A stretch of 64,000 nucleotides of DNA, taken from Fusobacteriota bacterium. Lineage in GTDB: Bacteria > Bacillota > TC1. The notes beneath the pieces are model-generated. The model was not told the DNA's origin and did no database searches. It worked only from the letters and a program-made list of their open reading frames with translations. Below, piece by piece: positions 12,081-14,548 of this stretch (positions are counted from its first letter, which is position 1; each line of letters opens with the position of its first letter). Made by a program: the position numbers and the translations under genes. The stretch is taken from positions 248,001 to 312,000 of the forward strand of contig WTXA01000002.1 in assembly GCA_009773805.1 (NCBI GenBank), written 5' to 3'.

Positions 12081-13007
12081 CTAACTAAATAGAGGCGTGG
12101 ATAAATATCTTTCTCCTGTATCAGGAAGTATAACAACTATATTCTTACCTTCATTTTCAGGTCTTTTGGCCACTTGCACAGCTGCATAAAGAGCAGCCCC
12201 TCCAGAAATACCCACAAGTACACCTTCTGTAACCGCTAACTCTCTAGCAGCAGCAAAAGCATCCTCATGATCAACCTTTACAACCTCATCATAAACCCCA
12301 ACATCTAAAATACTAGGAATAAAACCAGCACCTATACCTTGAATCTTATGAGGACCAGGCTCTCCACCACTTAAAACTGGAGAACCAGCAGGCTCAACAG
12401 CAATAACTTGAATACCTGAATTTTTGCTTTTAAGGAAAGAACCAGCACCAGTAATTGTACCACCAGTACCAATACCAGCTACAAAAATATCTACTTGACC
12501 ATCAGTATCTTCCCAGATCTCAGGACCAGTTGTACTAAAATGGATAGCTGGATTAGCAGCATTTTCAAACTGACTAGGAATAAAAGCATTAGGAATAGAC
12601 TGAGCAAGCTCTTCTGCTTTAGCAATCGCACCCTTCATACCTTTTGGACCCTCAGTTAAAACCAACTCAGCACCTAGTGCCTTAAGTAAACTTCTTCTTT
12701 CAACACTCATAGTCTCAGGCATAGTTAAAATAACCCTATAACCCTTAGCAACACCAGTCATTGATAAACCAATACCAGTATTACCACTAGTTGGCTCGAT
12801 TATAACAGAGCCTTTTTTCAAGATCCCCTTAGCTTCAGCATCCTCGATCATAGCCTTAGCTATTCTATCCTTAACACTGCCACCCGGATTAAAGGACTCC
12901 AACTTACCAATTAGTGTGGCCTTAAGGCCATTACTTTCTCCATAAGTTCCAAGCTCCAATAAAGGTGTCTTTCCAATTAAATCTGTAATTTTTTTATAAA
13001 CTTTCAT
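12081..13007 (-). CDS. cysK: Cysteine synthase A (O-acetylserine sulfhydrylase)
   Basis: PLP enzyme making cysteine from O-acetylserine and sulfide. The PLP lysine lies in NPGGSVKDR (about 41-49) and the substrate loop is [11 protein letters not shown]. The phosphate-binding loop [10 protein letters not shown] is intact. Length 308 residues is typical. It starts 2 bases after the metY stop, with its AGGAG box inside the end of metY, so the two are one operon under the cysteine-codon leader upstream of metY. Confidence 0.96.
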
Positions 13008-13009
13008 AA

Positions 13010-14302
13010 TTATTCTCCTATCGCTTTAAAAGCATTTTCTAAATCTTCTATAATATCATCGATATGTTCAATACCAATTGATAATCTTATTGTATTTTCC
13101 TTGATCCCTGAATTAATCAACTCTTCCCCAGACAATTGTGAATGAGTTGTAGTTGCAGGATGTATAACCAAGGACTTAGCATCAGCTACATTAGCTAATA
13201 GAGAAAAAATCTCCAAGCTATCAATAAACTTCTTAGCCTCAGCTACCCCTCCCTTAATTTCAAAAGTGAAGATTGAACCTGCACCTTTAGGGAAGTACTT
13301 CTTATATAGTCCGTTATATTCATTACCCTCGATGGCAGGATGATTAACCTTTTCTACTAATGGATGATCTTTCAAGTAATCTACAACCTTCAAGGCATTT
13401 TCCACATGTCTTTCAACCCTTAGTGATAAAGTTTCAATCCCTTGTAGGAACAAGAATGAGTTAAAAGGACTTAATGCTGCACCTGTATCTCTTAATAGGG
13501 TTACTCTAATTTTAATAATATAGGCTAAAGGACCAACGGCTTCAGTGAAAACTACACCATGATAACTTGGATTTGGCTGACTAAGTCCTTTAAACTTATC
13601 ACTAGCAGCCCAATCAAACTTGCCACCATCAATGATCACTCCACCTAAGGATGTTCCATGACCACCAATAAATTTAGTTGCTGAATGTATTACAACATCA
13701 GCCCCATGTTCAATAGGTCTAAACAAGTATGGTGTAGCAAAGGTGTTGTCCACTATCAATGGAATTCCATGTTTGTGAGCTATGTCAGCAATTGCTTGAA
13801 CATCAACTATACTTGAATTTGGATTTCCTAGTGTTTCTATAAATACGGCTTTAGTATTTTCCTTGATGGCCTCCTCAAGTTCTACCAGATTATCAGCATC
13901 TACAAAGGTTGTAGTAATGCCAAAGTCCGGTAGGGTGTTTGAGAATAGATTGTAAGTACCACCGTACAGTGTTTTTGCCGCCACGATATGGTCTCCTGCT
14001 AAGGCAATGTTTTGTATCGCATAACTTGTAGCTGCAGAACCTGAAGCTACTGCCAAGGCAGCAATCCCACCTTCTAGACCTGCTATTCTTTTTTCTAATA
14101 CATCTGTTGTTGGATTCATTAATCTTGTATAGATATTCCCAGCTTCGCTTAGATTAAATCTATTAGCCGCCTGGTCAAAATCCTTAAATACATATGATGT
14201 AGTTTGATATATTGGTACAGCACGTGATCCTGTAGCGCTGTCTGCTTCTTCTTGTCCTAAATGTAATTGTAATGTTTCAAATTTTAATTGTTTTTCGCTC
14301 AT
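13010..14302 (-). CDS. metY: O-acetylhomoserine sulfhydrylase
   Basis: Cys/Met metabolism PLP enzyme (430 residues) that uses O-acetylhomoserine with sulfide or methanethiol. The PLP lysine is in [18 protein letters not shown]. The long form, with a start like [11 protein letters not shown], distinguishes it from cystathionine gamma-synthase (about 380 residues). The first structural gene of the metY-cysK operon, it begins 95 bases after a Cys-rich leader ORF. Its own ribosome site (AAAGAGG) is moderate. Confidence 0.93.
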
Positions 14303-14397
14303 ATTTTACCTCTTTCTTTATTCAACCTTCTAAGGTTATTTTATTTTATATTTTGTTTTGTTCATTTGATTATTATTTTTCTAATATTTATTCTTAA

Positions 14398-14472
14398 TTA
14401 TAGACTTATGCTAAACATGCTACAACAGCACATTCGTCTATTATTTCCCCATACTTTTTTACTATTGTTCAT
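14398..14472 (-). CDS. Cysteine-rich leader peptide of the metY-cysK operon
   Basis: A 24-codon ORF with a strong GGAGG box 7 bases before its ATG. Residues 12-19 read RRMCCCSM: three consecutive Cys codons (TGC TGT TGT) flanked by Met. It lies between the operon promoter and metY. The Cys codons sit in a 7-bp hairpin (ATGTGCT with AGCATGT) enclosed by ATAGAC / GTCTAT. Poly-Cys leaders ahead of cysteine genes are known in mycobacteria, where they sense cysteine by translation. No U-run terminator lies between this ORF and metY, so control by translation or Rho is more likely than intrinsic termination. Function inferred. Confidence 0.72.
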   Translation of the reverse strand: MNNSKKVWGNNRRMCCCSMFSISL

Positions 14473-14487
14473 GTTTGCACCTCCATT

Positions 14488-14506
14488 ACATATATTTCCT
14501 ATATGT
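14488..14506. promoter_or_regulatory. Palindrome at the start of the metY transcript
   Basis: ACATATA-N5-TATATGT, a perfect 7-base inverted repeat, falls about 8-26 bases after the predicted transcription start. It may be an operator (the Rrf2 regulator next door is the obvious candidate) or a small 5' hairpin. Confidence 0.4.
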
Positions 14507-14519
14507 TTACTATGTATTA

Positions 14520-14548
14520 ATTATATTAAATCATTATAGATAAGTCAA
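14520..14548 (-). promoter_or_regulatory. Promoter of the metY-cysK operon
   Basis: TTGACT (14543-14548), 17 bases, TATAAT (14520-14525) on the minus strand. It gives a 5' leader of about 210 bases containing the Cys-rich ORF. Confidence 0.82.

Follow-up and report, generated by a model that had tools for sequence, protein, structure and literature searches.

Consecutive Cys codons in a conserved ORF upstream of metY-cysK: a candidate regulatory leader peptide for cysteine supply

Upstream of metY and cysK of a Fusobacteriota bacterium lies a short ORF whose run of Cys codons exceeds chance, since Cys accounts for only 1.0% of the codons in 65 ORFs of the window (the whole 64,000-nucleotide stretch of contig WTXA01000002.1 that was analyzed), with CC occurring three times and CCC never among 18,391 codons, and since the ORF is kept in all five genomes of the genus. 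Judged from sequence comparison, we consider it reasonably probable that the ORF encodes a regulatory leader peptide which tunes cysteine-producing operons to cysteine supply. Sensing of cysteine is suggested because the same conserved core occurs on two cysteine operons, because Cys codons follow this core, and because predicted attenuators are found in other families. The initial annotation had proposed a 24-codon ORF with a strong ribosome site and three Cys codons between the promoter and metY, and this proposal was borne out, with coordinates matching the sequence (Table 1).

Table 1. Features of the metY leader locus, in their order on the minus strand of the window: rrf2, terminator-like hairpin, promoter, box, GGAGG, leader ORF, gap, metY, cysK.
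Feature	Position	Strand	Basis or remark
rrf2, Rrf2-family regulator with Cys triad C91, C99, C105	14602..15042	-	PF02082, TIGR00738
Terminator-like hairpin	14596-14570	-	
Promoter TTGACT-17-TATAAT, sigma-70-like	14520..14548	-	Consensus scan, 11/12; serves the leader-metY-cysK unit
Candidate Rrf2-type operator TAGTAAACATATAGGAAATATATG, 24 nt, just downstream of the -10	14489..14512	-	Sequence recurrence
Shine-Dalgarno GGAGG of the leader ORF	14480..14484	-	Read from sequence
Leader ORF, 24 codons, ATG start, peptide MNNSKKVWGNNRRMCCCSMFSISL	14398..14472	-	Kept in 5/5 genus genomes
Conserved core GGAAATAATAGACGAATG = G-N-N-R-R-M	14431..14448	-	Recurs in the cysH-operon leader of the own genome
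Cys codons TGC TGT TGT, leader codons 15-17	14422..14430	-	
Small hairpin AACCTT-AG-AAGGTT, without U-run, ahead of the metY ribosome site	14324..14337	-	
metY, O-acetylhomoserine/O-acetylserine sulfhydrylase	13010..14302	-	TIGR01326, 662 bits vs cut-off 495
cysK, cysteine synthase	12081..13007	-	TIGR01139, 454 bits vs cut-off 351

The genus sample comprises the own genome (G000) and four others (G001 to G004), at least four of the five being MAGs, and conservation as reported here rests on few lineages. In all five genomes rrf2, the leader, metY and cysK follow in the same order, and the pattern R-R-M-(C/S)-C has exactly one match per genus genome and none in five outgroup genomes. The leader peptides are MNNSKKVWGNNRRMCCCSM.. 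in G000, MNKSRKIWGNNRRMCCCSM.. in G003, MNKSIKICRNNRRMCCCSM.. in G001, MNKNEEMIGNNRRMCCYCMLC in G004 and MNILTTDYGNNRRMSCCIY in G002. The Cys codons, whose loss in close relatives the initial annotation had set against its own reading, are retained: Cys is present at codon 15 in four of the five metY leaders, at codon 16 in all and at codon 17 in four. The strongest conservation, however, resides in the preceding N-N-R-R-M, and what stands of the original designation as a poly-Cys leader is a conserved leader ORF with Cys codons, in which the Cys run is secondary. The core N-N-R-R-M is encoded by AAY AAY AGA CGA ATG, with AGA CGA ATG identical in all leaders, and conservation over the 18-nt core is unmatched in metY itself, where none of 1294 windows of 18 nt has 17 or more identical columns across the five genomes. 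CGA represents 29 of the 635 Arg codons in the window, yet it occupies leader codon 13 in six out of six cases; metY has ten invariant Arg columns, and at each of them AGA is used in at least four of the five genomes. The Shine-Dalgarno sequence is kept as GAGG in all five aligned genus leaders, with the first G in four.

A second leader, MTVLTNQIGNNRRMYICTKVNLLDSVK, is located in the own genome on the minus strand of G000:C1 from about 590734 downwards (L045 from 1542 down; L282). It was found by the peptide profile at E 0.04 and turned up again in the background control, and no such second leader was detected by the profile in G001 to G004 at E <= 1. Here GGAGG, ATG, peptide and stop codon are followed after 33 nt by a DUF2061 gene and then by a gene for a PAPS-reductase domain protein (cysH), as identified by Pfam (DUF2061 and PAPS_reduct); the ORFs further downstream resemble, as read by eye, cysD and genes of a cysN-like GTPase and a TSUP-type permease. 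Across the six leaders (five of metY and one of cysH) N-N-R-R-M is invariably found at codons 10-14, with Met always at codon 14, and Cys follows within three codons in all six, no one Cys position being common to all (codon 17 in 5/6, codon 16 in 5/6, codon 15 in 4/6). The cysH leader contains a single Cys codon, at codon 17, and shows no excess RNA structure (z +0.46). Since this leader keeps the core with one Cys and without such structure, both the 'poly-Cys' label and the hairpin appear to be secondary. Read from its sequence, a leader with a single Cys would be weaker than a typical codon-counting attenuator. The promoter of the cysH leader carries an ATAGGAA box resembling that of metY, and transposase-like ORFs are located close by.

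A leader MTGFSKLCCCCRMTFSRAFNMARRFDIA ahead of a metY (L130), which matched a Cys-run pattern, opened a wider survey of the phylum. metY is present in 204 of 398 phylum genomes, and the survey loci were taken from among the matches listed; G217 and G152 were skipped, as the gene lies too near the contig start. The resulting 154 metY upstreams comprise 30 loci, 118 more and six of seven further loci (L163, a partial match, was left out), and 151 of them have 600 nt. An SD-preceded uORF with CCC occurred in five of the 154 in sense orientation (three in the genus, two in family f98) and in none in antisense. In-frame CGA-ATG in such uORFs was found in 15/154 upstreams in sense and 0/154 in antisense: the five of the genus, L157 and L158 (f98), L190 (f30), five further genomes (L166, L168, L174, L196, L200), and L206 and L208. 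In the latter two, CGA-ATG presumably belongs to the terminal codons of a PdxS-like gene located upstream, and they were dropped from the interpretation as gene ends while still being included in the count of 15. Outside the genus, CGA-ATG with a Cys within four codons was found in 7/149 upstreams versus 1/372 background windows (Fisher p 0.0009, a post hoc value, since discovery and counting of the feature relied on one set of 154 sequences), and the sole background match is the cysH leader itself. CGA is distinct in this respect: other Arg codons ahead of ATG gave four sense and no antisense cases for CG[TCG]-ATG and three sense and four antisense cases for AG[AG]-ATG. No CGAATG was found in the searched stretch of six extra upstreams outside the 154.

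The distribution of SAM riboswitches was followed in parallel. RF00162 was detected at none of the five genus metY loci and at 16 of 25 non-genus ones. A simple pattern for this riboswitch, which recovered 15 of the 16 covariance-model matches and missed at least L250, was present in 68 of the 154 upstreams, and CGAATG was absent from the last 350 nt of every one of them. In L250, CGAATG is followed downstream by a stretch that reads like a SAM aptamer.

Three of the seven non-genus loci combining Cys with CGA-ATG (L157, L158 and L190) are full predicted attenuators with terminator and antiterminator. A helix of the CCCGGG type and the peptide C-R-M-x-x-S-R-A are common to the three, which are located about 200-240 nt upstream of metY. 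When a ribosome occupies the Cys codon before CGA, the stretch (C)UCCCGGGC of the leader is predicted to pair with the terminator's 5' arm, giving antiterminators of -31.6, -39.4 and -38.6 kcal/mol, respectively; when it occupies the stop codon, a U-run terminator is predicted to form (-11.6, -17.0 and -15.0 kcal/mol). Though predicted, these elements make up the set of a classical attenuator, and again metY is the gene that follows. As the Cys-by-CGA-ATG leader is joined here to a predicted terminator and antiterminator, the output in f98 and f30 is probably transcription attenuation.

The peptide profile matched ten of the 398 phylum genomes at E <= 0.01, five of which belong to the genus. 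Inspection of the other five, L041, L046, L047 and L049 by ORF listing and L048 by script only, gave no leader ahead of a sulfur gene. A pattern scan of GTDB contigs yielded 13 stretches, four from the genus and nine judged to be chance matches on their reading frames alone. An RNA model run over the 398 genomes recovered the five genus loci and two weak matches, one being a promoter box that precedes cysK, with no leader present (L156), and the other unrelated (L155). A CCCC-leader pattern matched mostly out of frame, with two of 30 scanned loci in frame, L130 and L134. L134 was discarded, since its long SD-led ORF (MSRKGGNYRSSDCCCCCCGGCGNSCGCDCGC.., from position 1516 of the plus strand) resembles the precursor of a Cys-rich peptide. 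One CCC-leader pattern was unable to match the window's own leader, its gap being too short. Ten leaders had no NCBIfam match at E <= 10.

The fixed core can also be read as the motif of an arrest peptide. The nascent N-N-R-R-M(-Cys), perhaps together with the CGA-ATG pair, would then stall the ribosome on a sulfur metabolite such as cysteine, O-acetylserine or AdoMet, and Cys would be a part of the motif rather than a tRNA counter. N-N-R-R-M remains invariant in all six leaders while the Cys count drops from three to one, with Met always at codon 14 and Arg always encoded by the rare CGA, and a eukaryotic parallel in an enzyme of a related pathway is given in an excerpt of PMC8137854, where CGS1 stalls via its MTO1 region in response to AdoMet. 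However, N-N-R is lost outside the genus, where Cys can also precede Arg-Met, and the conservation of codons besides residues points beyond the peptide alone. We regard an arrest peptide as rather unlikely but as a serious alternative, the core being steadier than the Cys run.

That the sequence is instead kept for a hairpin in the RNA, formed either by the start region and the Cys codons or by AAUAAYAG and CUGUURU, with coding being incidental, appears improbable. The own leader does fold strongly, the RNA from 14520 to 14303 lying far below its shuffles (z -4.3, with 0/200 shuffles as stable), and the two hairpins, each of which involves the Cys codons, are mutually exclusive. The initial annotation had placed the Cys codons in a nested hairpin. 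Pairing of these codons is indeed predicted, but their partner in G000, G003 and G001 is the start region of the leader itself. In G002 similar arms are predicted to pair in another register at a probability of about one half, and in G004 AAUAAUAG is predicted to pair with the Cys codons in place of the start region. The hairpin is not common to the leaders: among those of metY, z from the Shine-Dalgarno sequence to the stop codon is -4.5 in G000, -2.3 in G003, -2.1 in G001, -2.4 in G004 and -0.8 in G002, and the hairpin is absent in the cysH leader, which keeps the core nonetheless. Compensatory changes were not found in the consensus fold of the metY leaders (0/19 pairs altered on both sides), and 15 of the 17 upstreams with CGAATG carry it in frame in an SD-uORF, two of these 15 being gene ends. 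From these modeled folds, we consider the leader hairpin secondary.

The gap of 95 nt between the uORF stop codon and the metY start (14302) is A-rich. A terminator scan of this gap was empty, as the initial annotation had stated for a U-run terminator between the ORF and metY, and the only terminator-like site found is the one located upstream of the promoter (Table 1). In a best-site-only scan of the four other genus genomes the best site was upstream of the promoter in three and absent in one, and no terminator was visible by eye in the 33-nt cysH gap. The small hairpin ahead of the metY ribosome site has, by eye, another A+T-rich hairpin as its counterpart at about the same spot in three of the four other genus genomes. 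A masked metY ribosome site as in erm-type translational attenuation was not found in the five genomes, in which the predicted pairing of the metY Shine-Dalgarno sequence is 0.16-0.26 without a ribosome and 0.16-0.33 with a ribosome at Cys. T-box RF00230 was absent from the window at gathering scores, with only a tRNA match, and six T-boxes are present elsewhere in the own genome. Rho is encoded in all five genus genomes; as the uORF-metY gaps hold 0-5% C, a classical rut site is unlikely by sequence. Measured against a leader-peptide transcription attenuator, the genus has the Cys-codon ORF ahead of a cysteine biosynthesis operon, whereas the scans gave no terminator with antiterminator. It is very improbable that the short ORF is an ordinary 5' stabilizer or translation enhancer which loads ribosomes near the 5' end without cysteine sensing, a role that the strong GGAGG, the 5' hairpin at the operator and the lack of an output structure found in the genus would fit, but that leaves the fixed N-N-R-R-M with Cys and its reuse on two cysteine operons unexplained.

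For the favored regulatory leader peptide, we propose that ribosomes would slow at CGA-ATG and, when Cys-tRNA is scarce, would halt at the next Cys codon, and that the stalled ribosome would raise downstream expression. In the genus, the output might consist of a parked ribosome shielding the 5' end of the mRNA, or of coupled or re-initiated translation. Since no terminator was seen and the cysH leader is separated from the next gene by so short a gap, an output of this post-transcriptional kind is more likely than termination, as far as the predictions go. For ErmBL, an effect of leader translation on mRNA stability is described in an excerpt of PMC5118997.

Transcriptional control would probably be added by the Rrf2 regulator acting on leader-metY-cysK. 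Its Cys triad occurs with the same spacing in all five genus genomes, and assignment to IscR or CymR was not obtained, both models scoring below cut-off (CymR NF047409, 110 bits vs 195). The candidate box is found with no more than one mismatch once per genome in 5/5 genus genomes, always at this site, and the ATAGG box is likely, by sequence, to be the Rrf2 operator. An ATAGG box just downstream of the -10 is also seen at the metY promoters of L164, L166, L168, L196 and L160, some of them beside rrf2. Upstream of rrf2, at 15480-15100 on the minus strand, the window contains two near-duplicate stretches, each containing TTTCAATT..TTTTCC, a ATAATAATTTTTTTCATCCAAA segment and, at 15330-15300 and 15140-15110, respectively, a strong terminator; these stretches may represent duplicated genes for small RNAs.

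Attenuation by leaderless polycysteine sORFs was reportedly described for mycobacteria by Canestrari et al. in 2020. Similarly, the metY leader is a short ORF that precedes sulfur genes and contains a run of Cys codons, with no terminator hairpin found; unlike the leaderless actinobacterial sORFs, it is SD-led, lies about 40 nt after the guessed transcription start, has a fixed N-N-R-R-M core, and is followed by a gap which, being poor in C, does not resemble a Rho site. The mycobacterial attenuators are cited in excerpts of PMC9094748 and PMC13236596, and an excerpt of PMC1262725 gives no conserved terminator hairpin for mycobacterial cys upstream regions. The same excerpt lists candidate cys and cbs leaders of Propionibacterium acnes and Bifidobacterium longum with suggested Rho-dependence, which, as described there, share with the metY leader the Cys runs and the lack of an identified output, but have these runs near the stop codon and belong to another phylum. 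The uORFC-8-2 motif upstream of cysS in Rhodobacterales, according to an excerpt of PMC8632094, has tandem Cys codons usually at 14 and 15 located in a stem, and thus resembles the metY leader as a uORF whose adjacent Cys codons pair; it differs in ending in a U-run terminator and in being alphaproteobacterial, and R-R-M is not mentioned in the excerpt. In Gram-positives, amino-acid leader peptides comparable to the metY leader, though for other amino acids, are represented in excerpted accounts by the his leaders of bacilli (PMC2965389) and a leucine-rich leader peptide of S. aureus (PMC5794164). An excerpt of PMC2965389, from 2010, states that, apart from erm, demonstrated leader-peptide systems had until then been limited to Proteobacteria and Actinobacteria. 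Cys-run leaders ahead of cys genes are reported for Actinobacteria in excerpts of PMC1262725 and PMC9094748; in the literature searched, cysteine leader peptides are described for Actinobacteria and Rhodobacterales alone, and none is reported for the present phylum.

It might be speculated, if with some doubt, that Arg(CGA)-Met-by-Cys peptides form an unrecognized phylum-wide class of leaders at cysteine and methionine sulfur operons without a SAM riboswitch, which in the genus would comprise a two-operon regulon with the arrest motif N-N-R-R-M-x(0-2)-C and a terminator-free output. If true, sulfur control in clostridia-like bacteria would include a level overlooked so far, such ORFs being too short for annotation, and the fixed rare CGA-ATG beside the sensing codons would offer a testable way into the question of how amino-acid sensing is sharpened by codon pairs or by nascent chains.
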